Shown in pieces: positions 12,871-32,056 of a stretch of DNA of 32,056 nt; positions within the stretch are counted from its first letter, which is position 1; each line of letters begins with the position of its first letter. The DNA comes from an uncultured Ruminococcus sp. (GTDB lineage: Bacteria > Bacillota > Clostridia > Oscillospirales > Acutalibacteraceae): NCBI GenBank assembly GCA_902790475.1, contig CADASG010000012.1, positions 1 through 32,056 on the forward strand, read 5' to 3'. Position numbers and translations under genes: made by a program. Under the pieces are notes generated by a model. It worked only from the letters and a program-made list of their open reading frames with translations. It had not been told where the DNA came from and did no database searches.

Positions 12871-12954
12871 GCGAGTGTGCTGGAATAGGCAGACAGGCAC
12901 GTTTGAGGGGCGTGTGTCTTTGACGTACGGGTTCAAGTCCCGTCACTCGCACCA
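12871..12954 (+). tRNA. tRNA-Leu, anticodon GAG
   Basis: An 84-base tRNA with encoded CCA. The acceptor GCGAGTG (12871) pairs with CACTCGC (12944-12950), followed by A and CCA. The anticodon stem is CACGT/GCGTG with the seven-base loop TTGAGGG, giving anticodon GAG (leucine CUC/CUU codons). A long variable arm and the T arm GGGTTCAAGTCCCG confirm a class II tRNA. Its 3' part is the attachment site of the integrated element; insertion left the gene intact. Confidence 0.95.
12932..12954 (+). other. attL core (3' end of tRNA-Leu)
   Basis: A 23-bp stretch running from TTCAAGTCCC to CTCGCACCA is repeated exactly at 19237-19259. It spans the T-loop to the CCA end of the tRNA, a favourite target of tyrosine integrases. 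Bases on either side of the two copies differ. Confidence 0.92.
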
Positions 12955-13009: not shown

Positions 13010-13022
13010 CTCAAACGTGCCT

Positions 13023-13048
13023 GTGGGTCTTATTTGTGGGTCTTATTT
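13023..13048. repeat. Left integrase arm-type sites (candidate)
   Basis: Two exact tandem copies of GTGGGTCTTATTT (13023-13035, 13036-13048). The core GGGTCTTATTT recurs, with a partial second copy, near the right end at 19112-19130. Repeats of this kind near both ends of a tyrosine-integrase element are expected of arm-type binding sites. The second copy overlaps the integrase stop codon. Confidence 0.7.
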
Positions 13049-14266
13049 TGTAATTTTGTCGCTGATTAAATCAACCATCACATTGATTGCATGAACATTT
13101 GCCATTTTAACTGCGTGTGTGTAGGTGTTTAGAGTTGTGGTTGTGTTGCTGTGTCCCAATAAAGCGGAAACTGTTCTTATATCCACACCGCTAATAATCA
13201 GTAATGTTGCAAATGTGTGTCGAAATATGTGTAAACCTTTGAATACAAGGTCATTTCGCTCACAGAATCGCTCAAACCAAGTATAGGGTGTGTTTGGGTG
13301 CATAGGTTCCCCACACCACGTTATAAAAAGTCTGTCTGTATCGTGCCATAAATCGCCGCATTTGTTTCGTTGATTTGATTGCTCACTTTGTAATTGCGCA
13401 ACCAAATCAAGAACAGAATCAGGAACCATTAACACTCTGTAGCTTGCTTTGGTTTTGGGTGTACCCGTATAAATTCCTGTGGCTTTGTTTCTATAGTTTG
13501 ATGTGCGCTTAATGGAAACTGTCTTTTTTGAAAAATCAAAATCTTTGTACTCCAAGCCGAGAACTTCACCACGTCGCAAACCAAGATAGGCACTTAATGC
13601 AAAATAGGCTCGATAATCTAATGAGGCTTGTTCATTGATTTTAGTTAAAATAGTGTTTAACTCAGCTTTTGTATAAACCTCTATTTCTTTTGGTGTTGAA
13701 TCAGAATTGTAAACTTTAATTCGTGAACAAGGATTGTTTGAAATAATCTCACAATCAATACCATAATTCATTACATCGCTAATGAATGATTTATAATGCT
13801 TTTGTGTTTTCGCTGATAGTCCACCGCCTGTTCTTTGATTTACACCTTTCATTGCTAAACCGCGAATGAAACTTTGGATTTGCTTCTTTGTAATCTTTTT
13901 AACCTCAGTTTTACCTATTGCTTTGTATGTACGCTCTCTAAAACCGTTTAATCTTTCAAGTGTTGCGGGTTTCATGTCTGAACCTTTGCACAACTCCAAC
14001 CATTCATCGGCTAATTGTTCAAATGTGATGTGTGCATTTTCAATTACATCACCGTTATTGTTCGTATTGTCTTTTTTTACCTGTTCTTCAAATAATACAG
14101 ATAATCTTTTCAACTCCTTTTCAATCTGCTTTTGCGTCATGCCGCTGTCAAATTTGATGGTATCACTTCTGATAAATCTTTGCTTGCCGGAAGAATCATA
14201 ACCAAGAGAAACTTTGAAGCGGTATGTATCACCTTTTTTTGTATGTCGTTTTTCTATAGAAGCCAT
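13043..14266 (-). CDS. int: Tyrosine site-specific recombinase (integrase)
   Basis: This 407-residue phage/Tn916-type integrase catalyses insertion at and excision from tRNA-Leu. The N-terminal beta-sheet arm-binding domain (MASIEKRHTKKGDTYRFKVSL) is followed by the SAM-like core-binding domain (about 75-175). The catalytic domain has the Arg in YLGLRRGEVLGLEY (about residue 230), the box HIFRHTFATLL (about 345), LLGHSNTTTT, and the tyrosine in NTYTHAV. All catalytic residues are present, so it should be active. AGGAGGTTACGAG precedes the ATG. It lies next to attL and reads toward it; the excisionase-like gene is just upstream in the same direction. Confidence 0.95.
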   Translation of the reverse strand: MASIEKRHTKKGDTYRFKVSLGYDSSGKQRFIRSDTIKFDSGMTQKQIEKELKRLSVLFEEQVKKDNTNNNGDVIENAHITFEQLADEWLELCKGSDMKPATLERLNGFRERTYKAIGKTEVKKITKKQIQSFIRGLAMKGVNQRTGGGLSAKTQKHYKSFISDVMNYGIDCEIISNNPCSRIKVYNSDSTPKEIEVYTKAELNTILTKINEQASLDYRAYFALSAYLGLRRGEVLGLEYKDFDFSKKTVSIKRTSNYRNKATGIYTGTPKTKASYRVLMVPDSVLDLVAQLQSEQSNQRNKCGDLWHDTDRLFITWCGEPMHPNTPYTWFERFCERNDLVFKGLHIFRHTFATLLIISGVDIRTVSALLGHSNTTTTLNTYTHAVKMANVHAINVMVDLISDKITK

Positions 14267-14287
14267 ATCTCGTAACCTCCTGCGAAA

Positions 14288-15080: not shown

Positions 15081-15125
15081 TATATCAAATTATTGAAAAA
15101 TACAAAAGTCTGCTCAATGTCGAGC
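15004..15125. repeat. 19-bp direct repeat flanking the last iteron
   Basis: AGTCTGCTCAATGTCGAGC occurs exactly at 15004-15022 and 15107-15125, 103 bp apart, with iteron 4 between the copies. The second copy covers the last codons and stop of the rep gene. It may be part of the origin or the trace of a small duplication. Confidence 0.75.
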
Positions 15126-16632: not shown

Positions 16633-16706
16633 TTGTAATGCTTTTTGTGTCTGCTCCTGTAGATTTATAACTAATTCACCTCCAATCCATATAAAAATAA
16701 AAACTC

Positions 16707-16735
16707 TTGACTTGCGAAAAAATACTTGCTATAAT
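16707..16735 (+). promoter_or_regulatory. Rightward promoter of the repressor gene
   Basis: TTGACT (16707-16712), a 17-bp spacer and a perfect TATAAT (16730-16735). It reads rightward through the leftward promoter at 16767-16795 into the repressor gene, leaving a leader of about 110 bases. A second TATAAT at 16827-16832, without a clear -35, could also serve the gene. Confidence 0.7.
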
Positions 16736-16766
16736 TTGTATAAATATCAATTTACTTGACAATTAT

Positions 16767-16795
16767 ATTATAGACAAAATTTGTTGCTCTGTCAA
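16767..16795 (-). promoter_or_regulatory. Leftward promoter of the HTH-HNH-rep arm
   Basis: On the minus strand a perfect TTGACA (16795-16790), a 17-bp spacer and a perfect TATAAT (16772-16767). Transcription runs left into the small HTH, HNH and rep genes and faces the repressor promoter. Confidence 0.82.
16774..16784. promoter_or_regulatory. Candidate repressor operator
   Basis: ACAAAATTTGT is a perfect dyad around a central A and lies in the spacer of the leftward promoter. An outer dyad CTTGACA (16755-16761) / TGTCAAG (16790-16796) encloses it. Binding here would block the leftward arm directly. Confidence 0.5.
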
Positions 16796-16852
16796 GCCTA
16801 TCAACACAAAATAATAGAATCGCAAGTATAATTAACACAAAGGAATGATTAC

Positions 16853-17482
16853 ATGATTGTTGACAAGTACAATGAAATTTTACCAAGCAGAATCCGTGCG
16901 CTTATTGCAGACAGCGGCGCAACTCAGAACCAAATAGCAAAAGAAATCGGTGTTACACGTCAATCTATATCTCAATACTGCGATGGCTCAACCGTGCCGA
17001 ATGCGGACAAGTTGCTAAAATTAGCACAGTATTTTAATGTATCAGCCGATTATTTGTTAGGCATAACAAATGCAAAAACCATTGATAAAGATGTACAATT
17101 CATTTGTGAGTACACAGGGCTAAACGAATCTGTCATTGGTTCATTAGCCGATAGAGAACTACCAAACTATATTGCTGAACTGCTGAATCTGTTTTCAAAA
17201 TCATATCAAACAGAATATTTGTGCAAGTCTATCATCAACTATTTGAACACTGAAAACTTAGAAATAAAGGGAACAGATTATTTTGACTTTGGGGATATGG
17301 ATTGCATTTTGAATGCCCCTAAATTGAATTGGCTATTTTATAAATCGGTTGATACCAACGGCGATACAACAATATCACAAGAAAAAATTGATAATTCTTT
17401 TTGGGAAAATTACTTTTTGATAGAGGTACAAAAAACCCTTATAAAAGCAAAATCTGAAATAAACAAATCAACAGATAAATAA
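16853..17482 (+). CDS. XRE-family (cI/Stl-like) repressor
   Basis: This 209-residue regulator has an N-terminal HTH_3 domain: SRIRALIADSGATQNQIAKEIGVTRQSISQYCDGSTVPNADKLLKLAQYFNVSADYLLG (split here only for description; about residues 12-67). The remaining 140 residues are acidic and helical, with no RecA-type cleavage site that I can see. It is the only gene of the left half read rightward and sits behind promoters that face the replication arm, the standard position of a prophage or satellite master repressor. AAGGA precedes the ATG. Release from repression might occur by a partner protein rather than self-cleavage. Confidence 0.85.
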   Translation: MIVDKYNEILPSRIRALIADSGATQNQIAKEIGVTRQSISQYCDGSTVPNADKLLKLAQYFNVSADYLLGITNAKTIDKDVQFICEYTGLNESVIGSLADRELPNYIAELLNLFSKSYQTEYLCKSIINYLNTENLEIKGTDYFDFGDMDCILNAPKLNWLFYKSVDTNGDTTISQEKIDNSFWENYFLIEVQKTLIKAKSEINKSTDK

Positions 17483-17556
17483 AATATTGCTTTTATCATA
17501 AAAAAGCGATACAGGGCAAATATAGCCAAAATAGAGGTATATACAGCGGCAATACA

Positions 17557-17589
17557 AAACCCTACCAACTGTTATAGCTGATAGGGTTT
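17557..17589. terminator. Bidirectional terminator between repressor and resolvase genes
   Basis: AAACCCTA (17557-17564) pairs with TAGGGTTT (17582-17589), followed on the plus strand by ATTATTTATT and preceded by an A-rich stretch. It separates two converging genes. Confidence 0.65.
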
Positions 17590-17594
17590 ATTAT

Positions 17595-18233
17595 TTATTG
17601 TGTTTGATATTGTTTAACCAACTTGTAAAAAGTGTTCGGTTTGAGGTTCATCATCTCCATTGCTTTGCGGGCTGTTATTTGCTTTGCTTGCCATTGTGGA
17701 ATAACCTCTTGCCAATTATCGGGGTAGGTTGCTTTTGGTCTGCCAACCGGGTTGCCTGTCTTGTTGCTTATTAGTCTGCCCTCAGTATCACGCTTCATAG
17801 AGTCGTAACCTTCGCGCTGTCTTTGCTTTATGGTTTTGCGCTCATTCTCTGCGATACTTGTTAAAACCTCGATTAAGATATTAGTTACCATATCGCTTAC
17901 CCACTCTTGACCCTCTGGATAATCAATCAGTGTAGTGGGTATGTCAATAACCTTTAGCTTGATACCGTGCGCCTTAAAATATTGAATCTCTTGCTTTGCT
18001 TGCTCTTTGTTGCGGCTGAGTCGGTCAAGGCTTTTGATGTAAAGTGTATCACCTTTAACCAACTTACCAATGCCAACCTTTAAGGATTGATAACCGTCAC
18101 GCTGGAAGTCTTTGCCGCTTGCTTTATCGGTAACGATCATATCAGGCTCAACATATTGCTGTAATGCTTTAATCTGTCTGTCAAGATTTTGCTCCCGTGT
18201 GCTTACTCTCGCATAACCAACTACTTTACTCAT
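17595..18233 (-). CDS. Serine recombinase, resolvase/invertase family
   Basis: A small serine recombinase of 212 residues. The N-terminal catalytic domain begins VGYARVSTREQNLDRQIKAL with the nucleophilic Ser in ARVS, and IKSLDRLSRNKEQ carries the conserved arginines. A long E helix and a C-terminal HTH (GRPKATYPDN, then ARKAMEMMNLKPNTFYKLV) follow as in Tn3-type resolvases. It probably resolves multimers of the excised element, a plasmid-maintenance trait; inversion is the alternative. The ATG at 18233 follows AAAGGAGCGGTAACA; a start six codons upstream lacks such a site. It follows the small membrane-protein gene by 14 bases. Confidence 0.9.
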   Translation of the reverse strand: MSKVVGYARVSTREQNLDRQIKALQQYVEPDMIVTDKASGKDFQRDGYQSLKVGIGKLVKGDTLYIKSLDRLSRNKEQAKQEIQYFKAHGIKLKVIDIPTTLIDYPEGQEWVSDMVTNILIEVLTSIAENERKTIKQRQREGYDSMKRDTEGRLISNKTGNPVGRPKATYPDNWQEVIPQWQAKQITARKAMEMMNLKPNTFYKLVKQYQTQ

Positions 18234-18247
18234 TGTTACCGCTCCTT

Positions 18248-18436
18248 TCACCTAATACCATATTTGCGTGCAATAGCTTTGCGCTCTGCTTTAGTTTTGC
18301 CGATCATCTCAATCATCATGTTCTTTGTGGCATTTGAAGTCATTTGTTGACTTTTGGAATCTGCCTTATACTGTTCTCTCTGAATCTTTGCGCCTGCAAT
18401 CGCTAAACCAACGATAACCATAATAAATGCCGCCAT
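18248..18436 (-). CDS. Small protein with one N-terminal membrane helix
   Basis: This 62-residue protein starts with the hydrophobic segment AAFIMVIVGLAIAGA and then turns strongly polar and basic (KIQREQYKADSKSQQ, GKTKAERKAIARKYGIR). The topology would leave a basic cytoplasmic tail. An excellent ribosome site (AAGGAGCGAGAGTA) precedes the ATG and it heads the resolvase operon, so I take it as real despite its size. I do not recognise the family. Confidence 0.65.
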   Translation of the reverse strand: MAAFIMVIVGLAIAGAKIQREQYKADSKSQQMTSNATKNMMIEMIGKTKAERKAIARKYGIR

Positions 18437-18487
18437 TACTCTCGCTCCTTAAATGGAAAAATGTGTGTTTGTTTTTGGATTGATTTT

Positions 18488-18516
18488 AGTATAGCATAAG
18501 TGTTTGTAAAAGTCAA
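18488..18516 (-). promoter_or_regulatory. Promoter of the membrane protein-resolvase operon
   Basis: On the minus strand TTGACT (18516-18511), a 17-bp spacer and TATACT (18493-18488), reading left into the gene at 18436. Confidence 0.75.
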
Positions 18517-18573
18517 GTGTATTTTTAAATAATTTACAAATATTTTTTATTTTAACACAAAATATTTACAAAC
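18502..18573. repeat. Candidate res site: TTTGTAAA/TTTACAAA half-sites
   Basis: GTTTGTAAA (18502-18510), TTTACAAAT (18533-18541) and TTTACAAAC (18565-18573) lie in one AT-rich stretch just upstream of the resolvase operon, overlapping its promoter. Inverted half-sites beside a resolvase gene are what a res site looks like and would also give autorepression. The low complexity of the stretch weakens the case. Confidence 0.4.
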
Positions 18574-18629
18574 ATATAATGGTGGTGGTTTTTGATGTGT
18601 AAAAAAGTGTACTTTTATAAACAAAACAA

Positions 18630-18654
18630 CACAGCGGCAATAATAACCGCTGTG
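18630..18654 (-). terminator. Terminator of the 80-residue protein gene
   Basis: CACAGCGG (18630-18637) pairs with CCGCTGTG (18647-18654), loop of nine. On the minus strand the stem is followed by GTTGTTTTGTTTAT, a T-rich tail. Confidence 0.65.
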
Positions 18655-18671
18655 CTGTTCTCTAATACATA

Positions 18672-18914
18672 TTAGAAGAAATCGCCGCCATAAACCAAAT
18701 TAACAAATTGTTTTAACTGTCGTTTATAACCTTGTCTTTCAATCTCTTTTAATTCTGATACTGCCTGTTGAAAGTCTTTGTTTTGCTCCCACTCATCTTT
18801 TGGCAAGTCCAACCGGCTCACCTTCTCTAATAAATGAAATGGTTTTGCAAACTGTTCTTTGTGTGCCTCGATAATAGCAACATCTTGTTGTGTGATGGTT
18901 TGTGTTGTGTTCAT
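18672..18914 (-). CDS. Hypothetical 80-residue protein
   Basis: The sequence (MNTTQTITQQDVAIIEAHKE, ending VNLVYGGDFF) is charged and mostly helical, with no motif I recognise. The ATG has an AAAGG site about eleven bases upstream and the gene is followed by a clear terminator, both of which favour a real gene. It is the last gene before the right end of the element, a position often used for accessory cargo. Confidence 0.55.
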   Translation of the reverse strand: MNTTQTITQQDVAIIEAHKEQFAKPFHLLEKVSRLDLPKDEWEQNKDFQQAVSELKEIERQGYKRQLKQFVNLVYGGDFF

Positions 18915-19236
18915 TTTAATTCAACCTTTCAATTATATTTCTACCCACAGGGGGATAGTTTACATTTGTGTTTCATTGGTTATGCCGCTGTCTGTCGTTA
19001 TGTGATACTCTCTATCCTCACAGCGGCAAAAACAATTATAACTCATTATTTGTACCAATCAAAACAATCACTTATAATTGTTTTTTAGTTTGCTATCTGT
19101 GTTTCGTTTTGGGGTCTTATTTGGGTCTTAAAGCTATGAAATGATATGTAATGATATGTTTGTAACCACAGCGAAAAAGCCTTGTATTGACCGCATATGA
19201 CACGAAATGAAATACTGTGTTTTGTGTCTGGATTTT
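18915..19236. other. Right end of the element, no gene
   Basis: This non-coding stretch holds an inverted repeat GCCGCTGT (18984-18991) / ACAGCGGC (19020-19027), the candidate integrase arm sites at 19112-19130, and a tandem AATGATATGT (19140-19149, 19150-19159). Frames that cross attR here are not believable genes. Confidence 0.6.
19112..19130. repeat. Right integrase arm-type sites (candidate)
   Basis: GGGTCTTATTT (19112-19122) followed directly by GGGTCTTA (19123-19130), in the same orientation as the tandem pair near attL (13023-13048). The pair lies about 107 bp inside attR. Confidence 0.65.
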
Positions 19237-19259
19237 TTCAAGTCCCGTCACTCGCACCA
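19237..19259 (+). other. attR core
   Basis: An exact copy of the 23-bp 3' end of tRNA-Leu (TTCAAGTCCC to CTCGCACCA) with no tRNA 5' part before it. The host terminator follows five bases later. Confidence 0.92.
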
Positions 19260-20066: not shown

Positions 20067-20423
20067 ATGGCAACAACTATGACATATACGAAACAGGGCG
20101 ACTATCTTCTCCCCGATTTGAAGTTACCTGAACAACCGAAGGGCAAAATCGGCGTTTTCGGACAAAGACATAAACGTTATCTGCAAGAGCACCACAAGCT
20201 AATCTATTTCAACCTGCTTACCTCGTGTAAGCTTGCGGCATATCTTGCCGACATTGATTCTCAGGCAAACGAAATGTACGATCTGCTCATCCGTCAGCTT
20301 TCCGAAAAGGAAAACATCAACGAAGAGCTCAAAGCGGAGAATCCAATGGAATGGACGCGTAAAATGAACGCAATCCGCCTCACAGCCGCCGAAATCGTCA
20401 ACAGAGAGATAATCTACATATAA
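20067..20423 (+). CDS. tnpV: TnpV-family transposon protein
   Basis: This 118-residue protein shows the TnpV pattern. YTKQGDYLLPDLKLPEQ is followed by IGVFGQRHKRYLQEHHKLIYFNLL, LAAYLADIDSQANEMYDLLIRQL and EWTRKMNAIRLTAAEIVNREIIY. TnpV was first seen on Tn4451-type transposons and accompanies mobile DNA in Clostridia; its biochemical role is not established. AAGGAGGTCTGAATT gives a strong start. No transposase or large serine recombinase is next to it, so it is a leftover or a passenger. A strong terminator follows. Confidence 0.85.
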   Translation: MATTMTYTKQGDYLLPDLKLPEQPKGKIGVFGQRHKRYLQEHHKLIYFNLLTSCKLAAYLADIDSQANEMYDLLIRQLSEKENINEELKAENPMEWTRKMNAIRLTAAEIVNREIIYI

Positions 20424-20460: not shown

Positions 20461-20502
20461 CAAGGAGGTCAGGGACTATTTGCCTTGATCTCCTTGTTTT
20501 TT
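20461..20502 (+). terminator. Strong terminator after tnpV
   Basis: A 14-bp stem, 20461-20474 with 20483-20496 (two G-T pairs), followed by six T. It insulates the next operon from the tnpV transcript. Confidence 0.88.
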
Positions 20503-20593: not shown

Positions 20594-20622
20594 TTGAAAA
20601 AAGAGTCATTATATGATATGAT
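20594..20622 (+). promoter_or_regulatory. Promoter of the four-gene putative defence operon
   Basis: TTGAAA (20594-20599), a 17-bp spacer and TATGAT (20617-20622). The leader is about 40 bases and carries GGAGGTGAGAAT before the ATG at 20669. No other convincing promoter appears before the end of the operon. Confidence 0.65.
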
Positions 20623-20668
20623 AAAATAGAATTATTCGATATGGTTTATTGATTGTGGAGGTGAGAAT

Positions 20669-22258
20669 ATGCGATATGCAATAGACCGTTTAAATGCTGG
20701 ATTTGAAATGGAAGTATGTGCAGATGATTTTGACGGAGAGTATTCGGTTCGGCTATCAAACAGGTTTTTTTGTCCGGAATGCGGCGAATCTGTTTTCTGG
20801 AAATCAAAAGGCGGAAGAAAAACCAGAAATGAGTTTTCACACTATCGAAACTCTCCTCAAGCACCTGAATGCGACAAGCGAGTAGATGGGAATTCGAGCT
20901 TATATGTTTATCAACGTGTCGGCTTGCCTATGAAAATTGCCCGTAGAGGCGACACTTTTTTCCTTTACATGAACTTTCCTGCGATCAGTAACACGTTAAT
21001 AGAAACTGCTATCAATCAAAAAGCAAAAGTAACGATATCTGCAAACAAATTGTCAAAATCATTTCCTATTAATTTTACTTATTTTCAAGCAGATAAACAA
21101 ACCTTGCTGCCACTTGATTTTGTTCCGATAGGCGGCAATTATTCTGTTAGTGTCAGCGGAACAATCGGAATATTACAGTTAAAGCAAAAATGGTCGGACT
21201 ATTCAGACGGGTTTTCATATGCAGGAGCTATTTTCACCAACGAGGATGACGGAGCCCGAAAGGTTCGTCGCGGAGATAGTATTACAACAGGAAAACGATA
21301 CTATTTGATTTCAAAAGATTACCGACCGATTTACAAGGAAATTGAAATTGCATTTATCGGTAATATTACACTAAACAACAGCGTCTTCAATGTTTATGAA
21401 TTGGAAGTTAATGTATCGGTGTATGATGAGTATCTATACACAAGCATAAGCAACTACCTAAAGCAATGCTTTGGCGTTTGGTTATTGGAAACCACTCCTG
21501 AACTTATTCCACTGTGGCCGCCGGTTACCGATCAGGACGTCTCTGTACCCGTTGCCGATTGCGGTTCTGTTATATGTGCTGTATCAAGTGGCAATAGTAC
21601 ACCAAGGGTATTTCACTACGAAAGAAACAGGGCGATCACCGTTCCGATAAAAAGGGATGAAAGCGAAAACAACATGGTTGAATTGCCGCTTTATCATCAA
21701 CAGGCTACTATTGTTTCTGTTGACAGAAAATATGTCGGACGTGAAGCCGTTTTTTGCAAGAGACCTATTGATTATAACGGCTGTGGTTACGATATTTCCT
21801 TGCTAAGCAACAATGGCAATTTAATCTCAGAAAATGATCTTATCTCAAAAACGAACAGAAAAAATGCAATTGTTCAGACAAATGCGAAATTTGAGCTATA
21901 TCTTAAAACAAGAGATTTTGTTATCAAACATCTGTCAGTTAGAGAAACTCAAATCCGTTTCCCCGATTGCGATCATCTGCAAGAGATTATTTTCACTGTT
22001 AAACAAGGAATACTCAAAAAAATTGCTCTTCAAAACAGCCGACCAACTGAACATTTGGTAACGCCCCAAACTCCGGTAATCAACACGATCAAACCATCTG
22101 ATTACGTACCAATACCGCGGTGGGTGGGATATCTTCTGTCGGAATGGAAGAAAAACGGTGATATCAAAACGGTTCAGGAAGTTTCATCATTCTTTAATCA
22201 AGGCAAAATGCCATATCAGCTTCTAATAGAATTGATGAATTACTTGGTTTTGGAATAA
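20669..22258 (+). CDS. Operon gene 1: protein with CoiA-like zinc motif, function unknown
   Basis: This 529-residue protein has a zinc-type motif near the N-terminus: C35-P-E-C38, then FSHYR with H58, then C68. That spacing and the G-x-K-x-x-x-F-x-H block resemble the zinc region of CoiA-like competence proteins, but I see no nuclease motif after it. The central part (about 85-400) looks rich in beta strands (GNYSVSVSGTIGILQL, FIGNITLNNSVFNVYELEVNV), suggesting repeated sandwich domains. The last 60 residues are helical (WVGYLLSEWKKNG, VQEVSSFFNQGKMPYQLLIELMNYL). It heads the operon, and gene 2 begins 29 bases after the stop. Its place and size resemble those of middle Druantia genes, which is only a positional analogy. 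Confidence 0.7.
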   Translation: MRYAIDRLNAGFEMEVCADDFDGEYSVRLSNRFFCPECGESVFWKSKGGRKTRNEFSHYRNSPQAPECDKRVDGNSSLYVYQRVGLPMKIARRGDTFFLYMNFPAISNTLIETAINQKAKVTISANKLSKSFPINFTYFQADKQTLLPLDFVPIGGNYSVSVSGTIGILQLKQKWSDYSDGFSYAGAIFTNEDDGARKVRRGDSITTGKRYYLISKDYRPIYKEIEIAFIGNITLNNSVFNVYELEVNVSVYDEYLYTSISNYLKQCFGVWLLETTPELIPLWPPVTDQDVSVPVADCGSVICAVSSGNSTPRVFHYERNRAITVPIKRDESENNMVELPLYHQQATIVSVDRKYVGREAVFCKRPIDYNGCGYDISLLSNNGNLISENDLISKTNRKNAIVQTNAKFELYLKTRDFVIKHLSVRETQIRFPDCDHLQEIIFTVKQGILKKIALQNSRPTEHLVTPQTPVINTIKPSDYVPIPRWVGYLLSEWKKNGDIKTVQEVSSFFNQGKMPYQLLIELMNYLVLE

Positions 22259-22287
22259 TACCTGTCAAGGAAAAGAGGCTATTCATA

Positions 22288-25056
22288 ATGGATGAGAAAA
22301 AATACATAGAAATTGATTTAACAAAACTGGATAGATCAGAGATCAGTTATATTTGTGAATTGATTACGCCACAAATTATACGGCAATTTTTCAAAAAAGA
22401 ATCACGATTTTTCAATCGTATTAAACCCGGATATCGCGCCTCAAACCTTTCTGACAAAGAGGCTATCAAATTGCTTTGCAGTAATGCTACAGATGGGGTT
22501 GCTGCAAACTTAATTATTGGCTTTCTAAATTCTAAGCTAGCAGAAATAAATGAATACTGTGCAGATTTGGAGAAGCAGGGATACCCGCATGAAAAAGCGA
22601 AAATGATCACATTATCAAAGAGCCTTTTCTTAGACAGGGTTGGGTTATATTTTAAGATTTGCGTAGAGGAATATTCAGAAGAGTATATCGCTCTGGCAGA
22701 AGAAATGGTAGAGTTCTTCAAAAGCTATGATGAAAATAATGATGAAACTTCTAAAAATGCACCGGACTCGGAAGAATTAACAAAACTACGTCAAGAAATA
22801 TCAGAAACAACTCAAGTAAACGAAGAACTGCAACGAACTATTCATGAAAAAAACAGTGAATACTTGCAGGAGCAGCAAATGGTACAAGAGTTAACAGTTA
22901 AGTTTGATGCGCTGAACGATGAATTTCGCGTTGTTCAGTCCCAAAAAACGAAATTAATTGAAAAGAACTCATCCCTACAAGCTGAAGTTGATCGTTTGAA
23001 TTCACTTTATCGTTTACACGATGAAGAACGAAAGGATATATTCAGCAGTGAATATAAACATCATTCTATATGTAAAGTCTATTATGATTGGAATAAGAAT
23101 CGTTGGCTTTCGAGAATAGCAGATATACACGATGGAAGGATTTCGATATTTGAAAAAGATGATTCTTTACCGCATTATTTCGACAACAGAGATAAGCTGT
23201 ATTGGAAAGACGGTCCCGAAGAAGACGGCGCTATTGGTGTTTGGCAATGGAATGCCGTTGAAAACAAAACAACTCCCGGAAAAGATTACGTAACAACTAC
23301 GTATGTTCAAAACGCTTCATTCATTGAGGTCATAGAATTTTCTGATTGCCATTCTTATGAAGATCTGGCATCCGCATTAATTAGCAAGGAAATTCCGTCG
23401 AATGTCGCGGAAAAGGTTTTTGTTGTGTGCCGTGATGCGGATGGGCAGTTGATAGGATTACTCATTAGAAAGCGCGATTTAACAATTAACAGCGGATCAG
23501 CAAAACTGAAATCAAAGGTATTTACTCTGCCCGGATTTGAAATGTCAAGTGCTGATATCATACCAATTGGCGAAAGAAAAATATACTCTTTCACGGCAGC
23601 GGGAATGCCCAATAGAATTATTCAGATAAGAAATCCGATTGCTGTTGCAAAAGAAATAATTCTCTCACGCGCCACTCTTTCTGCTCTTAGAAATCTTGGA
23701 CTCACAAAAAGAGAAGCCCAAAATTGCCAGGCGTTCCTAAAGGACCTTCCTGTTCAAACGATATACGACGATCTTTCCGACGCTTACTCCTGCTCAAACG
23801 ATGAAGCACTACAATATGTTTCTGAATTTATTGAACGAGCAGATTCATATTTAACCGAAACCGATTTGGATACCACGACACTTGCCGCTGCGGTAGAACG
23901 CAGCAGTGCCTTACAAGAGCGCTGCAAAAAGATTTTGACCGAAGAATGGCAGCAGGAAAACGCAGAGAAGCTGTCATCCGCACTAAGTGAGCTTGAGATT
24001 ATCCAAACACAGTTGACCGAAAAAACAGAAAGTATTCAGCGCTCCGAAGAAGAATTACATGTTTTGGAACAAAAGAAAGCCGAAACGCAGGCAGAGATCG
24101 ACCGTCAACTTGTTTTTGCCGAAGAAGTAAAAGCAAACGTGCAAAAACATATTACAGACGCAAAACAAAATGCTTCACAATTTATCAGTGATATGGCATT
24201 TATCTCACCGATTATGTCAACACCTTCAGTTGCAACAAACGATAATAAAGTCTTATTCAGCCGGATACTTATTGGAGAACAGGGCGAAGAAATCACTGAC
24301 AGAGATGATTTTACGGAAGCATTAGGTGAAAATCTTGAAGTAATCGGTTATGAAGAGAATGTCGCCATTGACATGGCAGAAACGATCTTGTTTTGTATTG
24401 AGAACGGATTGCCTGTGGTCTGTGGAACGAACGCCTCAAACATTTCCGACTGTGTGGCAGCAATGTTCGGAAATGCTGTTCACCATGCTTTCTTGCGATT
24501 AAACCAAGATAATTGTCAACAGCTTTGCGATGAAATTGTTGCGGCGTCTCAAAAGCATATCAGTGTAGTATTGATTAACGGCGCTTTTGATGGGCTAAGC
24601 CTTAATTCCTTTAATGAATTATTACTGCGATTATCGCCATATAAAGACCGTGTTGTTTTACTCTTTTCACTGAACGATATTCCTTGCCGTATGATCCCTA
24701 AAACCGTATGGAACCGAACCATGTTTATTGACGGAGACGACGGCTTCACAGGATTTAGCACTCAATTGATTCAAATACATCAATCGGAACCAATGGTAAA
24801 TCAACCGATCACTCAGGATGCTTTCAAATCCGCAAGAAAACTGCTTCGTCCTTTTGAAAAGATCATTGACAATCAAGCGCTCGCGCACTACGCTGCTTTT
24901 ATGGCGTTGAACGATTGCGGGATTAAGGACAAAACCATTATGTGGCAAATTCTATTGCATGCGCTTAACCTCGGAAGCAAAGACCAAATCACCGAATTCC
25001 TCGATTCGGCAGGAATAGAAGAAAGCGACTGCAAAGGCTTTATGAGATATGTGTGA
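22288..25056 (+). CDS. Operon gene 2: coiled-coil protein with degenerate P-loop-like C-terminal domain
   Basis: A 922-residue protein. Order: helical N-terminal domain (1-150), coiled coil (about 160-245, SEELTKLRQEISETTQVNEEL), a beta-rich middle domain (about 255-460), a helical linker, a second coiled coil (about 550-628), and a C-terminal domain that runs like an AAA+ module. There ENGLPVVCGTNASNISDCVAA (about 705-725, shown in part as GTNASNIS) takes the Walker A place without the G-K. HISVVLINGAFDG (757-769) takes the Walker B place without the Asp-Glu pair. RVVLLFSLNDIP follows like a sensor strand. It may be a structural or sensing partner rather than an ATPase. I do not recognise the family. 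AAGGAAAAGAGG lies before the ATG. Confidence 0.72.
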   Translation: MDEKKYIEIDLTKLDRSEISYICELITPQIIRQFFKKESRFFNRIKPGYRASNLSDKEAIKLLCSNATDGVAANLIIGFLNSKLAEINEYCADLEKQGYPHEKAKMITLSKSLFLDRVGLYFKICVEEYSEEYIALAEEMVEFFKSYDENNDETSKNAPDSEELTKLRQEISETTQVNEELQRTIHEKNSEYLQEQQMVQELTVKFDALNDEFRVVQSQKTKLIEKNSSLQAEVDRLNSLYRLHDEERKDIFSSEYKHHSICKVYYDWNKNRWLSRIADIHDGRISIFEKDDSLPHYFDNRDKLYWKDGPEEDGAIGVWQWNAVENKTTPGKDYVTTTYVQNASFIEVIEFSDCHSYEDLASALISKEIPSNVAEKVFVVCRDADGQLIGLLIRKRDLTINSGSAKLKSKVFTLPGFEMSSADIIPIGERKIYSFTAAGMPNRIIQIRNPIAVAKEIILSRATLSALRNLGLTKREAQNCQAFLKDLPVQTIYDDLSDAYSCSNDEALQYVSEFIERADSYLTETDLDTTTLAAAVERSSALQERCKKILTEEWQQENAEKLSSALSELEIIQTQLTEKTESIQRSEEELHVLEQKKAETQAEIDRQLVFAEEVKANVQKHITDAKQNASQFISDMAFISPIMSTPSVATNDNKVLFSRILIGEQGEEITDRDDFTEALGENLEVIGYEENVAIDMAETILFCIENGLPVVCGTNASNISDCVAAMFGNAVHHAFLRLNQDNCQQLCDEIVAASQKHISVVLINGAFDGLSLNSFNELLLRLSPYKDRVVLLFSLNDIPCRMIPKTVWNRTMFIDGDDGFTGFSTQLIQIHQSEPMVNQPITQDAFKSARKLLRPFEKIIDNQALAHYAAFMALNDCGIKDKTIMWQILLHALNLGSKDQITEFLDSAGIEESDCKGFMRYV

Positions 25057-25063
25057 GGCTGAT

Positions 25064-26098
25064 ATGGATGACAAGCTTCTTCGCAGAATGGCGGAAGATT
25101 TAAAAATATCACCATACAAAAATGAATACTATTTCGATTTTGAATGCCGCGTGATTTATTCCGCAATGGCTTCATGGATCAAAGCTGTCTGTATGGATAA
25201 ATCGGTATTGGCACAGGCTGAACAATCCGATACAATTGAGGGAGTCAGCAAAGTACATGTTCTGAACAAATGCAAGCCCGTGTTGGATGAATTGCTGAAA
25301 CGATTTCCAAGTACAAAAGCATGGTTTGAGATTCATGATAAGCACTACAAGAATGCTGTAGAGTTTATCCGTTCATCCCTTTTAAGCAGCGGCGAATTGG
25401 TGAATGTGGGGTTTGATACCCAAATTGCACTTGCAAAGCAAGAGCAGCAACCATTAACTCCGGTATTGAAACGGTGTAAAGGGATTATTTTGGATCCTAA
25501 TTGTTTTTACTCCGGAATAGCTGCATTAGCACAGACTGCTCCAAAAGAAGATTTTCAGCTGGAACAGCTGATTTCAGCGAAAGAATGGTTTTTAGAGTAT
25601 ATCAAAAACGCGTGGTGGAAACCGGAATCATCCGATCGGGAAGCGGTCAGCTTTTTTAACCCGTATTACCGTTCCAAAAGTAATGCCTACTCGTGGCAGG
25701 ATATGCCTCCAAAGCCTGTGAAGGAAATCGTACTGTTTCGGCGTATTATCAATAAATACGACCGCGAATACGTGCTGTATCATACGATTGAAAAAAAGAT
25801 TCATCGGATCGATCCTGTTTTTAAGGACTTCCGAGAATACAGGAGAATCATTATGGGGATGCGTGCTTTCGCAGATAATCCGGTTCCCATGACTGCGACA
25901 CACTTCGCAGACCATACAGCTGTTTCGATGAATGTCCATCTCCCAAGAAAAGAATTCCTATTGTTGAAGACCTACGCATGGCCTCAAAGAGGAATCATGG
26001 ATAAACTTAACTGGAATATGCCGCATATCGTTTGGGATTACCTAAAACCATATTTTTTATCACTGGAAATGCAAATAACGGAGGAAAAGCATGGATAA
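25064..26098 (+). CDS. Operon gene 3: unrecognised protein of about 344 residues
   Basis: No family is recognised. The protein is soluble and mixed alpha/beta, with many aromatic residues (WFLEYIKNAWWKPE, FFNPYYRSKSNAYSWQDMPPKP). The C-terminal third contains conserved-looking ATHFADHTAVSMNVHLPRKE and LKTYAWPQRGIMDKLNW. The start at 25064 has GTGAGG six bases upstream and lies seven bases after the gene 2 stop; an ATG at 25049 inside gene 2 would add five residues. The 3' end overlaps the helicase gene by eight bases, so the two are almost certainly translated together and may act together. Confidence 0.68.
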   Translation: MDDKLLRRMAEDLKISPYKNEYYFDFECRVIYSAMASWIKAVCMDKSVLAQAEQSDTIEGVSKVHVLNKCKPVLDELLKRFPSTKAWFEIHDKHYKNAVEFIRSSLLSSGELVNVGFDTQIALAKQEQQPLTPVLKRCKGIILDPNCFYSGIAALAQTAPKEDFQLEQLISAKEWFLEYIKNAWWKPESSDREAVSFFNPYYRSKSNAYSWQDMPPKPVKEIVLFRRIINKYDREYVLYHTIEKKIHRIDPVFKDFREYRRIIMGMRAFADNPVPMTATHFADHTAVSMNVHLPRKEFLLLKTYAWPQRGIMDKLNWNMPHIVWDYLKPYFLSLEMQITEEKHG

Positions 26099-29000
26099 AT
26101 ACAGTGTCAAAAATACCCATGACGCTCTAAAAAATAAACTGATTGACTATATCAATACCGAGTATCTCGGAAAAAACGACGCTCTGCGCAAGGCTTGCCG
26201 TGGTGAACTGCAAAAAAGCGGTATGCTGTACCAAGAACCGTTTATCGAGGCCAATCCCGCCTATGTGACCGTTACAGACGGAATAAAAAACGCCGATTTA
26301 CCGGACACTGTGAAAGATACACTGAGCGCTATGGCTGAAATGGATTTGGGTGTATTTAAGAATCCTTATCAGCATCAGATAGAATCACTGGAAGCGTTTT
26401 ACCGAGGGGAGGATTTGTTTGTCGCTACAGGCACCGGCTCCGGTAAAACTGAATGTTTTATGTGGCCGATGGTAACTAAATTAGTGAACGAGCAGATACA
26501 GTCACTCGATACTTGGGCGACACGCGGTATCCGTGCAATTATGCTTTATCCGATGAACGCACTGGTATCGGATCAACTGGGGCGTCTCAGACGCATGATA
26601 GGAAACGGCGAGAATGGATTCCATGCGTTGCTAGAAAAAATCGCACCCAATTGTCGAGTACCTCAGTTTGGAATGTATACGGGCAGAACGCCTTACGCAG
26701 GTGCTCCCAATGAAGCTAAGAACAAAGACCTTGCTGCAACACTTGAAAAAGACATTCTCAATCAAGATAGCGACGTAAAGGACAAGCTCAAAGAAATCGG
26801 AAAATATCCCTCAAAGCAAGATTTAGCATCCTTTATCAACAGATTGAAAACCAATGAAACAATTTTGACAGACGAACTTGACGCTGAATTGATTACCCGC
26901 CATGAGATGCAACAATTTTGTCCGGATATTTTAATCACCAACTATTCGATGTTGGAATATCTGCTTATGCGTCCGATAGAAAAGTCGATTTGGGAAAACA
27001 CGAAAAACTGGCTGAATAAGAATCCCGAAAACAAACTGCTTTTCATTATTGATGAAGCACATATGTACCGAGGTTCTTCCGGCGGTGAAGTCGCATTATT
27101 GGTCAGGAGGGTTTTGAACAAGCTCGACATCAAGCGTGACCGAGTGCAATTTATTCTGACAAGTGCCAGTATTCCGTCAGGCGAAAAAAAGGAGCGTCAG
27201 GTAATTCAGTTCGCCTGTAATCTCAGTGCACAAAGAACAGAAAGCCATTGTTTCCGATTGATCAAAGGAAATCAAGAAAAAATTACATTTAATGGTACTG
27301 AATTTGATCCATCCGTTTTTGACGATTATGATATTGATGCGTTACAGCAGGATTGGGAAATCAAGAAAAACGCTGTAAAGGATTTTGGTACGCGGGCAGG
27401 CTTCTCGTTAAATTGTGATTTTGAGAAGGAAACGTCTGTTGAGCACTGGTTATATACTCAACTTATCAATTGTAATCCGATGCTCCGTATCATGCATCAA
27501 ACCAGAGGACATGCCACAAGCTTTACAGATTTGTCCGCAGCGGCATTTCCCGACGCGGATCAATCGGTCTCTGAAAAAGCAACAAGTGCGCTTCTGGCAA
27601 TTGCGCCTTTTGCGAAGAATGAGAACGGCAATGTGCTATATCCGGCACGTCTGCACATGATGTTCCGTGGTTTGCAGGGAATTTACGCATGTATTAATCC
27701 TTCATGCTCCTGCAAGAACCATTCTTCGGAGGAACTTGGATTTGGAAAGATATATCTCAACAAACCTGGGAACAGGTGCAAATGCGGCGGAATGATCTAT
27801 GAACTGTTGAACGAACGTACCTGCGGAGCGTTGTTGATCAAGGGTTACGTTAATGATTCAGAACCTTCCAATCCTTTTGTCTGGAACGAAGTTGGCGTAC
27901 AGTTTTCGAAACACATGAAGGAAGTACACTTCTATTTGATTCCTAATGATGGTAGTTATAAACGCGCCGGAAAAGATTCGGTTGGTTGGATCAATGTTGT
28001 CACAGGAAGGCTGGATAATCAGTATGACCATTCCGGCGAAGACAGTTACATACAGGTTGCTTACCGAAATATTGAAGTAAATGGTCATCCAAATATTTGG
28101 ACATTCAGTACCTGCCCTAAATGCGATAAACAGTTTTTTACAGCTACTGACTTCCGCACAAAAGGCAATGAACCGTTTTATAATATGGTATCGGAACAGT
28201 TCCACATACAGCCACCCGTTCCGAGATATCGAGATTTGATAAACCAAGGCAGAAAAGTGCTTCTATTCTCCGACAGCCGCCAACGTGCCGCTGTACTGGC
28301 AAGAGATTTGACAAAAGCGGCAGATGTCGATGCTATGAGAAAAGCACTTGTGGTGGCCGCCAAAGAATTACAGGAATGGTCAGCAGATAACCATAAACTA
28401 CCTACACTCAATCTACTTTACGTTGTCTTCCTTAAAGTTGCTTATGAGAATCATTTGCAGTTTTTCTACAGCAACAGTGAAAAGAAACTGGCAGATGACG
28501 TACATGAAATCGGCGAGAAATACGAAAGGAAGCATGGCAATCTCAAATACACCGCATTAAGTAAAAAGTTTAAATCAATACCGCCGCAGTATTACGAGCA
28601 TATGTTGATTCAGATGTGTGACAGTTTCCGTTCGTTAACTGACATTGGCTTGTGTTGGTTGGAACCCTGCGATATTGATGATGACACCTTTGATGAGATT
28701 GAGGAACTCTTTGATGAAAACGATATTGATATAACAACAGAGCAGTTTTTCGTTTTGTTCGCAGCATGGGCGGCAGAGATCATGACGTCGTATTATGCTC
28801 TTGGTTCCGAAATCGATGATGATATCCGCAAAAGCATTACACCGTATTATCAGAGATTAGGCGTTGAGGAAGGTAAAGAAATTCCCTCGCGTATTCAAAA
28901 AATCTTGAAAGCACAAAGTTACACAAAGGAGCAGATCTCCGTTATCGCACAGGCACTCTCAAAGTTTTTGGTGCGCGGCGAAGGTACCTCCAACAAATAT

Positions 29001-31340
29001 CTGAATCTTGATGCGGTAGCACTGCGCTTTGACGATCAGCATCAATGGTTTAAATGTCCTCGATGCAGTGAGGTGTTTCCGTTTTCTCTTTGGGGACATT
29101 GCGCACGATGCGGAAAAGCAGTTCCCGCGGAAATGACCGATAAAGAATTTGCCGGAATAGAATTCTGGCGAAAACCTGTATTGAATGCAGTGCATGGTGA
29201 TCCGCAGGCTTTGATGACAAGAATCAATACGGAGGAACACACTGCGCAACTGTCACATAAAGATCAAAGACAAAAAACATGGTCTACTACCGAGGACTAT
29301 GAAATGCGTTTTCAAAACGTACATGTCGATAAAGACAGACCTGTTGATATTCTCAGCTGTACGACAACTATGGAGGTAGGTATTGATATCGGTTCCCTGA
29401 CGGCGGTAGGCTTGAGAAATATCCCCCCCATGCGAGAAAACTACCAACAGCGTGCGGGTCGCGCAGGCAGAAGAAGCGCAGCTATTTCAACCATTGTCAC
29501 CTATGCTGATAACAGACCGCATGACAATTTTTATTTTTATCATCCCGATAAAATCATCTCCGGTGAACCGAGAACGCCTTGGATTGATGTAGAAAATACA
29601 AAGTTGGCAAACAGACACTTTTCTGTCGTATGTGTCAACCGTTTCTTCGAAAAGATAGAAGCAGGTGCCGATTCAAAAGGAATCTGTGATTTCTTTGCAA
29701 ACAATTATCATGATTTTCTTGCTTATATAGATTCCCTGCGGGAAAATGATTTCAATATGGAACTGCTGATTCCCGATAAGATACAGTTTGACTTTGATAA
29801 TTATCAAAACTTTATTAAACGAGAGCTTGCTTCGCTAAAAGTAAAGGTTGAAGAATTTCCCGAAGAATACAAAGACGATGAAAGCGAAAAGGAAAAGAGC
29901 GTTTTGGATGTCTTTTTGGAATCCGGTATTTTCCCCACCTACTCTTTTCCGAAGGATGTCGTTGGATTCTACGTTGAAGATCAATACGGTAAGAAGATAG
30001 AACAGAAGCCTGAACGTGATTTGGAAATTGCTATCAGCGAATATGCACCGGGGCGCGTAATCGTTATCAATAAAACTACCTATCAGTCCGGTGGTGTTTA
30101 CAGCTTTCATTCAAAATTCCGCGCAGGAGAATACGATCATCCTGCCAGAAGATTCTTTGAGAGCAAAGAATTTTATAAGCGATTATTCTACTGTGATAAT
30201 CCCGGATGCAGTTGGATGGGATTGGAATACCATCGTATCTGTCCGTTTTGCGGAAAAAGCACGATCAACGAGCAAAACATGCTGACACCATGGGGCTTCG
30301 CGCCGGTCAATGGCGCACCGATAAAAGAAGCTGACGCAGATGCAGAGATGACATTTGCAAGCTCTCCATGTTATTCGATCACACCAGCTGACAGCGAGAT
30401 GAAACATCCGTCTGGGTTTGCTCATTTGCGGTACTGCAAGCGTTCCGATGATCCACTGATTATTTTGAACAAAGGAAATCTCAACGCCGGTTTTATGGTA
30501 TGCAAGGATTGCGGAGCAGCGATGCCCGGAGATGATGCGGATGTTCTAAAAAAAGTATTCAAACCATTTCGCCATCCGTACAGCAAACATCCTTGCTTTC
30601 ATCCCGCAGACAGATTGGTCAATACTTATTTGGGCAATCAATTCCTAACAGATCTGGTTGTTTATGAGATTGAAGTAGATACAAACCTCATCAACGCAGA
30701 AACCTCAGGCCTATGGGTAACCAGAGCAGCTCAAACGCTTGCAGAAGCTATGGCATTGGCCGGCGGTCGTTTGTTGGATATTGAGTTCAATGAAATCAAA
30801 AGCGGATATCGTTTACGATATGCTCAGGATCAACAAAAGGCGTTTATCGATATCTTTCTATTTGACAGTCTTTCCAGTGGCGCAGGGTATTGTGCCGAAA
30901 TTGCCGACCGTACCAAAGATCTGTTTACAGAAGCAGAACAGATACTCAGCAGTTGTCCAAATCAATGTGATTGCGCCTGCCATGATTGTCTAATGCACTA
31001 TTGGAATCAACGGGTGCATTCTTTGCTGGATCGCTATGCGGCACTTGATTTGCTCAAGTGGAGCCAATCTGCAAAACTTCATGAGCCATTAGCGTACGAA
31101 GCACAGGCAAAACTACTTGCACCGCTAAATTCGCTGAGCGCAGAATTCTCCGTAATCGGTGATGGAAATAAGCATTATCTTAAAACACATAATCGAAAGA
31201 TCGAACTGATAGTATATCCTTCGATGTGGAGCAAAACAAATTCTCTTTTGCCGCGCAATGCGATTGCTATCCCAGACAGGTTGTTAAAATATGCCCTGCC
31301 GAAGGTAGACGAGATAATAAGAGAAATTATTGGATTGTGA
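26091..31340 (+). CDS. Operon gene 4: giant DEAH helicase with DUF1998 region (DruE-like)
   Basis: A 1749-residue superfamily 2 helicase. Lobe 1 has Q94/Q96, Walker A ATGTGSGKTE (112-121), MLYPMNALVSDQLGRLRR (151-168), TNYSMLEYLLMRP, DEAH (321-324) and TSAS (357-360). Lobe 2 has LLFSDSRQRAAVLA, CTTTMEVGIDIG (about 1089) and QRAGRAGRRS (about 1119-1128). Cys clusters, probably zinc ribbons, occur near 534-565, 674, 989-1008, 1367-1388 and 1475. The C-terminus carries the DUF1998 signature CPNQCDCACHDCLMHYWNQ (from residue 1622) then HSLLDRYAALDLL. Large helicases with DUF1998 define DruE of Druantia; DISARM DrmA and MrfA share the signature but are shorter. All ATPase motifs look intact. GGAGG precedes the ATG. 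Confidence 0.88.
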   Translation: MDKYSVKNTHDALKNKLIDYINTEYLGKNDALRKACRGELQKSGMLYQEPFIEANPAYVTVTDGIKNADLPDTVKDTLSAMAEMDLGVFKNPYQHQIESLEAFYRGEDLFVATGTGSGKTECFMWPMVTKLVNEQIQSLDTWATRGIRAIMLYPMNALVSDQLGRLRRMIGNGENGFHALLEKIAPNCRVPQFGMYTGRTPYAGAPNEAKNKDLAATLEKDILNQDSDVKDKLKEIGKYPSKQDLASFINRLKTNETILTDELDAELITRHEMQQFCPDILITNYSMLEYLLMRPIEKSIWENTKNWLNKNPENKLLFIIDEAHMYRGSSGGEVALLVRRVLNKLDIKRDRVQFILTSASIPSGEKKERQVIQFACNLSAQRTESHCFRLIKGNQEKITFNGTEFDPSVFDDYDIDALQQDWEIKKNAVKDFGTRAGFSLNCDFEKETSVEHWLYTQLINCNPMLRIMHQTRGHATSFTDLSAAAFPDADQSVSEKATSALLAIAPFAKNENGNVLYPARLHMMFRGLQGIYACINPSCSCKNHSSEELGFGKIYLNKPGNRCKCGGMIYELLNERTCGALLIKGYVNDSEPSNPFVWNEVGVQFSKHMKEVHFYLIPNDGSYKRAGKDSVGWINVVTGRLDNQYDHSGEDSYIQVAYRNIEVNGHPNIWTFSTCPKCDKQFFTATDFRTKGNEPFYNMVSEQFHIQPPVPRYRDLINQGRKVLLFSDSRQRAAVLARDLTKAADVDAMRKALVVAAKELQEWSADNHKLPTLNLLYVVFLKVAYENHLQFFYSNSEKKLADDVHEIGEKYERKHGNLKYTALSKKFKSIPPQYYEHMLIQMCDSFRSLTDIGLCWLEPCDIDDDTFDEIEELFDENDIDITTEQFFVLFAAWAAEIMTSYYALGSEIDDDIRKSITPYYQRLGVEEGKEIPSRIQKILKAQSYTKEQISVIAQALSKFLVRGEGTSNKYLNLDAVALRFDDQHQWFKCPRCSEVFPFSLWGHCARCGKAVPAEMTDKEFAGIEFWRKPVLNAVHGDPQALMTRINTEEHTAQLSHKDQRQKTWSTTEDYEMRFQNVHVDKDRPVDILSCTTTMEVGIDIGSLTAVGLRNIPPMRENYQQRAGRAGRRSAAISTIVTYADNRPHDNFYFYHPDKIISGEPRTPWIDVENTKLANRHFSVVCVNRFFEKIEAGADSKGICDFFANNYHDFLAYIDSLRENDFNMELLIPDKIQFDFDNYQNFIKRELASLKVKVEEFPEEYKDDESEKEKSVLDVFLESGIFPTYSFPKDVVGFYVEDQYGKKIEQKPERDLEIAISEYAPGRVIVINKTTYQSGGVYSFHSKFRAGEYDHPARRFFESKEFYKRLFYCDNPGCSWMGLEYHRICPFCGKSTINEQNMLTPWGFAPVNGAPIKEADADAEMTFASSPCYSITPADSEMKHPSGFAHLRYCKRSDDPLIILNKGNLNAGFMVCKDCGAAMPGDDADVLKKVFKPFRHPYSKHPCFHPADRLVNTYLGNQFLTDLVVYEIEVDTNLINAETSGLWVTRAAQTLAEAMALAGGRLLDIEFNEIKSGYRLRYAQDQQKAFIDIFLFDSLSSGAGYCAEIADRTKDLFTEAEQILSSCPNQCDCACHDCLMHYWNQRVHSLLDRYAALDLLKWSQSAKLHEPLAYEAQAKLLAPLNSLSAEFSVIGDGNKHYLKTHNRKIELIVYPSMWSKTNSLLPRNAIAIPDRLLKYALPKVDEIIREIIGL

Positions 31341-31535: not shown

Positions 31536-32056
31536 CTATTCTTTGCTGCGCACCTTCATGTTGACGGTTTTAAGGATGGTTTGCAGGAGCGTTTCGGTGA
31601 CAATTGGCAACTGATTTTTGTACTCGGAATGATTGCTGATGAAGTCGTTGAACAGGCAAATGAGAATATCATTTTTCGTCGGAGCTTTCGGATATCCTCT
31701 TGCAATCAGTGCCATATTATGATCAAATAGCGGCGCAAAACCGATAAGCTTTCCGGTTGTCTGTCGGGATTTGCAACGATTGTATCGAGGAAAATCATCT
31801 TCACAAAATCGGCTTTTGCCCGCGGACAAATCTCTTCGAGTTTTGCAGAAACGTCTTCGTAATCTTCATTATCACCCATAAAAGCGAATGCCGGCTCGAA
31901 GTTTACGCTCGCATTATCGGTAAAATCAAGTGACTTTATACACTTGTCGCCGCGCTTATAAACAGCCATATTCATCTCTAATTTTTTGCCGAGATGATAG
32001 ATAAAAAGTTCAGAAAACAGTTCGTCATGCGTTGCGGATTTATACATCCACCACTT
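31536..32056 (-). pseudogene. HipA-like kinase gene, frameshifted and cut by the window edge
   Basis: Two overlapping leftward frames carry consecutive parts of one protein. The first, open from the right edge (KWWMYKSATHDELFSELFIYHLG), runs to FVKMIFLDTIVANPDR, the catalytic N-x-D-R-like motif of HipA/CtkA kinases. The second frame then supplies TTGKLIGFAPLFDHNMALIARG, with the D-H of the metal-binding FDH motif, and ends KTVNMKVRSKE. The switch lies near 31755-31767. In relatives about ten residues (H-x-G-N-F-G type) connect these motifs and are missing here, so a small deletion with frameshift has inactivated the gene. HipA-like kinases are toxin or signalling proteins that often lie in mobile islands. 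Confidence 0.7.

Follow-up and report, generated by a model that had tools for sequence, protein, structure and literature searches.

The window analysed here, a 32,056-nucleotide stretch of DNA from an uncultured Ruminococcus sp., is one whole contig of a 2.7-Mb draft genome (174 contigs, 94% complete). It carries four intact open reading frames (ORFs) that run uninterrupted on the + strand and end in a very large helicase gene; together they very probably form an intact, divergent Druantia type I operon, druB-druC-druD-druE, belonging to a large clade that lacks DruA at the locus. An initial annotation had described four co-directional genes behind one promoter, and the ORFs and a consensus scan agree with that layout, the junctions measuring 29 bp between genes 1 and 2, −8 or +7 bp between genes 2 and 3 depending on the start of gene 3, and −8 bp between genes 3 and 4. 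The operon comprises the following features.

20594..20622, + strand: sigma-70-type promoter-like site (TTGAAA-17-TATGAT, TG before the second hexamer; consensus match only)
20669..22258, + strand: gene 1, divergent druB, 529 amino acids (aa); N-terminal zinc motif, then beta-sandwich, partly immunoglobulin-like (Ig-like) domains
22288..25056, + strand: gene 2, druC, 922 aa; helical N-terminus, coiled coil, beta domain, second coiled coil and C-terminal inactive AAA+ domain
25049..26098, + strand: gene 3, druD, 349 aa (344 aa from the ATG at 25064); PADLOC model PDLC00008, 1.3e-20
26091..31340, + strand: gene 4, druE1, 1749 aa; YprA-family superfamily 2 helicase; PADLOC model PDLC00013

The promoter-like site is the best of its stretch, with 10/12 matches, and its assignment is suggestive only, because five sites of this quality occur in the scanned 461 bases, both strands counted, where shuffled sequences give 1.6 ± 1.4.

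Gene 4 matches the PADLOC DruE1 model (PDLC00013) over practically its full length (E 0, 1904.9 bits, residues 1–1745 on positions 2–1772 of 1776), and this model outscores those of DruE2, DruE3 and DruE4, the last reaching 605.9 bits. Pfam recognises DEAD, Helicase_C and MZB domains, with the MZB zinc domain, which we take to be the former DUF1998, at residues 1560–1634; Walker A (113–120), DEAH (321–324) and QRAGRAGR (1120–1127) are all intact. The earlier description of a DruE-like DEAH helicase with a DUF1998 signature is therefore borne out. DrmA models stay at or below 42.1 bits on this protein, and BrxH models, at or below 49.8 bits, match only the helicase core of DruE. Of 398 genomes scanned from the same phylum, 17 contain a DruE1 match of 1e-100 or better; its score exceeds 1900 bits in three (the window's own genome, G330 and G355) and remains below 490 bits in the others. 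No phospholipase-D domain is matched by Pfam in DruE, nor any DNA methylase or phospholipase-D domain in the four proteins, as the initial annotation had held, and no active nuclease was recognised in the operon. According to the accessible text of a 2025 preprint (PMC12458937), the helicases of types I and II carry an inactivated Vsr nuclease domain at their end.

To place the operon among its relatives, a six-sequence DruE alignment was scanned over a genome collection, and the best 80 of 574 relatives, a selection that leans to close kin, were combined with the window, three plasmid loci found by tblastn and two further loci into a set of 86. The plasmid pKF715A of P. putida (L001) carries DruA, three hypothetical genes and the helicase; a Nitrosococcus watsonii locus has DruA, two hypothetical genes and the helicase, and a Haloplanus plasmid locus has a long DruA on the opposite strand.

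The three genes ahead of the helicase had been regarded as non-Druantia partners, and the operon as a candidate undescribed system. Both views proved mostly wrong. Gene 2 matches PADLOC DruC1 (PDLC00006, 2.5e-8) and gene 3 matches DruD1 (PDLC00008); gene 1 itself has no PADLOC match, and among the 50 aligned rows 14 to 17 are matched by DruB1 models, with values for clade rows of up to 7e-266, so the makers of PADLOC must have had such proteins. Matches to DruB–DruD, which the annotation had named as evidence against its own reading, are thus direct for genes 2 and 3 and reach gene 1 through its relatives. Profile-profile comparison points the same way. When profiles of the window and six near loci were compared with DruA-linked loci, hhalign gave 98.1 for B (N-terminal part), 97.7 for C (C-terminal part) and 97.7 for D, with wrong pairings at or below 0.2. 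A stricter comparison of clade-only profiles (55 B, 58 C and 60 D rows) with nine DruA-linked loci gave 99.1, 97.6 and 99.0, covering the same parts of B and C, with six wrong pairings at or below 1.2. On these comparisons and on the PADLOC matches, gene 1 is assigned as DruB, gene 2 as DruC and gene 3 as DruD. Positional B, C and D profiles match 77, 81 and 84 of the 86 loci, training rows included.

The zinc motif claimed for gene 1 is confirmed by residues C35, C38, H58 and C68, which are invariant across the 50 aligned rows, and its N-terminus resembles a zinc finger in Pfam (CoiA_N, 2.7e-5, under that model's cut-off). A predicted structural model of DruB contains the zinc motif and Ig-like domains, the fold being seen in part, and this combination suggests that DruB may be a sensor. 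For gene 2, predicted model and alignment agree with the earlier description of a coiled-coil protein with a dead P-loop-like domain: its C-terminus, residues about 651–922 (nucleotides 24238–25053), adopts a predicted AAA+ fold that lacks the catalytic P-loop. Foldseek TM-scores for the DruB and DruC models are low, 0.09 to 0.37 among the matches listed, because whole multi-domain models were used, and fold likeness was judged instead on local VIA-align stretches. Searched against PDB sequences, the DruB and DruD profiles found nothing below E 0.5. Three of 51 DruC relatives are also matched, weakly, by the DruG2 model (best 7.4e-4).

For each of the 86 loci, DruA (PF14236, DUF4338) was sought throughout the source genome or record. 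The 174 contigs of the window's genome gave no match, in a search that had no positive control of its own, and the same model does match in other genomes of the survey; the initial annotation had likewise seen no DUF4338. Linked DruA occurs at none of the 66 loci of the window's DruE clade, and a two-sequence DruA profile also found none in the fetched clade loci. Outside the clade, 15 of 20 loci have a linked DruA: inside the fetched locus in 14, as found with the two-sequence profile (L001, L002, L003, L021, L083, L084, L085, L086, L090, L096, L097, L098, L100 and L101), and, judging from coordinates, roughly 10 kb upstream of druB and outside the fetched locus in L088. DruA is also absent from the remaining five loci outside the clade, four of them from Bacilli (L078, L081, L089 and L102) and the fifth L079. 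Since DruA was not found, the operon is filed as a DruA-less variant and not as standard type I.

Two of the 66 clade genomes (L036 and L049) do hold a partial PF14236 match, at model positions 3–222 and 32–222, which we count as unlinked, although the druantia contigs of both are cut upstream and the lack of linkage is thus not strictly shown. These matches resemble four short copies (6–226) in G458, the genome of L083, whose operon has a long DruA of its own. The four short DUF4338 proteins of G458 (303-aa frames) score equally and lie on one chromosome; short proteins of this kind may be part of a mobile or repetitive element.

Of the 66 clade loci, 64 are represented in the tree. The other two, L082 and L099, are of insufficient length for it and were assigned to the clade from their identity to the window's DruE (54% and 47%). 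An outgroup-rooted FastTree analysis unites the 64 tree rows in a single branch (support 100), with a warning that L002, L003, L074 and the outgroup have long branches; when those rows are left out, a 46-row IQ-TREE again separates the clade from the remainder with support 100. Most members belong to Bacillota, and the others are scattered over Bacteroidota, Planctomycetota, Pseudomonadota and further groups. With strand, gap and E-value criteria held constant, the complete order B-C-D-E is found in 57/66 clade loci (B in two frames in L043), using gene-order profiles for B, C and D that include their own training rows; helicase homologues of the clade thus mostly have these neighbours, the reverse of the outcome that the initial annotation had also named as evidence against its reading. 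Of the nine incomplete loci, seven are cut upstream by the contig end (L027, L036, L040, L045, L049, L052 and L082), one has D in two frames (L028), and one has B, C and D on the opposite strand (L058).

Pairwise comparison of 54 complete clade loci (1431 pairs) shows E to be better conserved than B or C in every pair and than D in 99.9%. For pairs with DruE identities of 60 to 75%, the median identities are 64 for E, 31 for B, 30 for C and 39 for D. Faster divergence of DruB fits a sensing role but does not show it, as a slower helicase is expected.

DNA methyltransferase genes lie within 2.5 kb of the operon at 25 of the 66 clade loci, and none was recognised within that distance at the 20 loci outside the clade. 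Profiles built from the clade account for 22/66 and 0/20, and a motif screen with Pfam adds L053, L057 and L069, in which other DNA methylases follow druE; a methylase without the screened motif and unlike the clade profiles would escape this count. A D12-class adenine methyltransferase directly follows druE in 12 clade loci, at a spacing of −4 to 53 bp, and a C5 methyltransferase lies within 2.5 kb in 10. At seven loci (L024, L025, L028, L031, L032, L034 and L077) a restriction enzyme gene is placed between the C5 methyltransferase and druB; five of these enzymes are of the Eco47II kind and two of the EcoO109I kind (one member per kind was named by Pfam). In L033, which is cut at its end, the restriction enzyme is seen alone. 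Both kinds occupy the same place before druB (L024:2523-4561 and L031:3442-5395). Eco47II and EcoO109I enzymes both cut GGNCC-type sites, which would suggest a common methylation target for the two types of locus. A small protein with an HTH_26 helix-turn-helix (HTH) domain (69 to 91 aa) precedes druB in seven loci and resembles the N-terminus of one C5 group; an HTH-bearing C5 gene takes this position in four further loci, giving 11 of the 73 tested.

Three methylase candidates outside the clade were set aside: that of L088 is an AAA protein by Pfam, that of L003 is annotated as a dGTP triphosphohydrolase, and that of L100 is its DruA. Within the clade, the L057 methylase looks like HsdM of a type I restriction system and is perhaps an independent neighbour.

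These neighbours could be taken to mean that clade DruBCDE operons are a functional subtype in which DNA methylation has taken over the task of DruA, so that Druantia and restriction-modification are combined in one hybrid system. The C5 methylase with its restriction enzyme, or the D12 methylase, would then mark self DNA or provide the trigger, and members without a methylase in the operon, such as the window, would use a resident methylase encoded elsewhere. The window's operon has no adjoining methyltransferase, restriction enzyme or HTH_26 gene, and no HTH_26 regulator was found among its upstream ORFs of at least 30 aa; its genome has one C5 methylase match above cut-off, on another contig. 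We regard this reading as unlikely.

A second alternative turns on the surroundings of the operon, which contain the following features.

12871..12954, + strand: tRNA-Leu (gag), integration site of the neighbouring element
12932..12954, + strand: attL core of the neighbouring element, 23 bp, at the 3' end of tRNA-Leu
13043..14266, − strand: tyrosine integrase of the 6.3-kb tRNA-Leu element (Phage_integrase, 1.5e-23)
19237..19259, + strand: attR core, exact 23-bp repeat; end of the element, 1.4 kb ahead of druB
20067..20423, + strand: tnpV, transposon-encoded protein (PF14198, 8.6e-44), ahead of the operon
20461..20496, + strand: terminator-like stem-loop with T-run (14 pairs, T tail), between tnpV and the operon
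31536..32056, − strand: broken HipA-like gene in two overlapping frames, reaching the contig end; recognised via an intact relative

The 6.3-kb integrative element (12932–19259) encodes the tyrosine integrase, an HTH regulator and a resolvase and is bounded by the exact 23-bp direct repeat. The initial annotation had set the operon among mobile-element debris and a broken HipA-like gene. Mobile surroundings are indeed present, with the qualification that the tRNA-Leu element ends at 19259, before the operon; in its simple form, the idea that the operon is cargo of this element was rejected, as attR precedes druB, and the operon could still lie in a second, larger element whose end falls past the contig. 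The HipA-like gene stands on indirect evidence: the broken pieces themselves have no HipA match, and an intact 347-aa relative (L122), 66% identical to the broken gene, has a HipA_C match. Its two frames could reflect decay or an assembly error. The terminator-like stem-loop is the one found, against a shuffle mean of 0.2.

A broken gene and mobile-element genes nearby, together with the absence of DruA, would speak for a decayed type I operon that has lost DruA and no longer works. Against this, all four reading frames and the helicase motifs are intact, the operon order is kept in most of the clade and also in another genome of the genus despite a DruE identity of only 43%, and the DruA-less state characterises a whole well-supported branch and not isolated cases; decay is consequently quite improbable. 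The helicase is found at 1e-100 or better in 2 of 37 same-genus genomes, the window's own included, and this scarcity, with the low identity of the two DruEs, favours separate gains. In the same-genus genome G494 a tnpV-like ORF follows the operon (L108:14631-14987; likeness judged by eye), and in another, G503, a second copy of the tRNA end lies on the tRNA's contig.

Very improbable, too, is a type I system whose DruA lies elsewhere in the genome or just past the contig end. The contig stops 716 bp past druE in a genome that is an incomplete draft, and DruA is located downstream of DruE in L021 (on the other strand), L084, L085 and L096; yet the window genome's contigs have no PF14236 match, no clade locus is linked to DruA, and the matches in two clade genomes are partial and like the short copies of G458. 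A separate helicase-centred defence system with unrelated partners, the second of two options offered by the initial annotation, is hardly tenable: gene 1 alone lacks a PADLOC match and genes 1–3 are only 11 to 20% identical to aligned DruA-linked loci, but the partners match the DruB, DruC and DruD profiles with clean controls, and PADLOC models recognise genes 2 and 3 as well as relatives of gene 1. A wholly new system was rejected on the profile comparisons; the first option, a divergent Druantia type, agrees with them.

Compared with characteristic type I loci such as pKF715A, the window has the full-length DruE1 and the same order of DruB, DruC and DruD in one operon, but lacks DruA, shows no more than 17 to 18% identity to pKF715A in B, C and D, and falls on a separate DruE branch. 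For type II (methylase DruM, DruF and DruG), genes 1–3 have no PADLOC match to these proteins and no Pfam methylase match. Type IV, described in the accessible text of PMC8565338 as DruE with DruF and DruL and without DruM or DruG, is disfavoured by the lack of DruF or DruL matches to genes 1–3 and by the far lower DruE4 score. Type III shares a DruE with a fast-diverging Ig-like partner, DruH there (PMC13192584, available text) and DruB here, and differs in that genes 1–3 have no DruH match in PADLOC and gene 4 no phospholipase-D match in Pfam. An inactivated McrB-like NTPase homologue with coiled coils beside a YprA-type helicase, here DruC, also appears in PMC12458937, whose accessible part makes no mention of DruA loss or of methyltransferase or restriction-enzyme neighbours.

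DISARM consists of DrmA with a separate DrmB, a methylase and the phospholipase-D protein DrmC. With DISARM and ARMADA the operon shares the YprA-family helicase, and methyltransferases adjoin some clade relatives; the window's operon, unlike either, has no methylase, PglX-like or phospholipase-D gene. Membership in DISARM is further contradicted by the low DrmA scores and by a zinc domain that is here fused into the helicase.

DruB1-type proteins were already known to PADLOC; new, as far as can be told, are the lack of DruA throughout the clade and the methylase genes beside its operons. In the literature covered, mostly outside subscription journals, no description of DruA-less type I operons or their methyltransferases was found. 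DruA is the only one of DruA–DruD given a Pfam family in the accessible text of PMC7251935, and detection rules requiring it would miss or mislabel these operons. A whole DruE1 branch without DruA opens the division of labour in Druantia I, between sensing and acting components, to experimental test. The association with methyltransferases connects Druantia I to the restriction-like side of the YprA helicase family.

From its homology, the druBCDE operon is a putative phage-defence system. DruE would be the motor, a YprA-family helicase that loads on phage replication intermediates containing single-stranded DNA and blocks or unravels them, a step for which the motor motifs observed here are the basis. 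Loading on 3'-tailed DNA, reported for type III DruE in the available text of PMC13192584, may carry over to DruE here. DruC, with its predicted fold and dead site, could be a scaffold coupling DruE to the sensor, and DruD an adaptor. DruB would be the likely recognition subunit, given its zinc motif, its Ig-like domains and its faster divergence than DruE; this role likely parallels that of DruH in type III, which the same text proposes as a sensor on the grounds of its Ig-like domains and rapid divergence. In some relatives, the operon's methyltransferase may mark self DNA. As no active nuclease was recognised, any DNA breakage would rest on host nucleases or an unrecognised domain.

Two genes near druE in related loci were also observed. 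In a type I locus with a linked DruA, the end of druE is overlapped by a PD-(D/E)XK nuclease gene (L021:16549-17724), whose product is a possible nuclease for an otherwise nuclease-less system. A 400-aa protein without a Pfam match (L023:15291-16493) is encoded 37 bp past druE in the locus whose DruE is nearest to that of the window.

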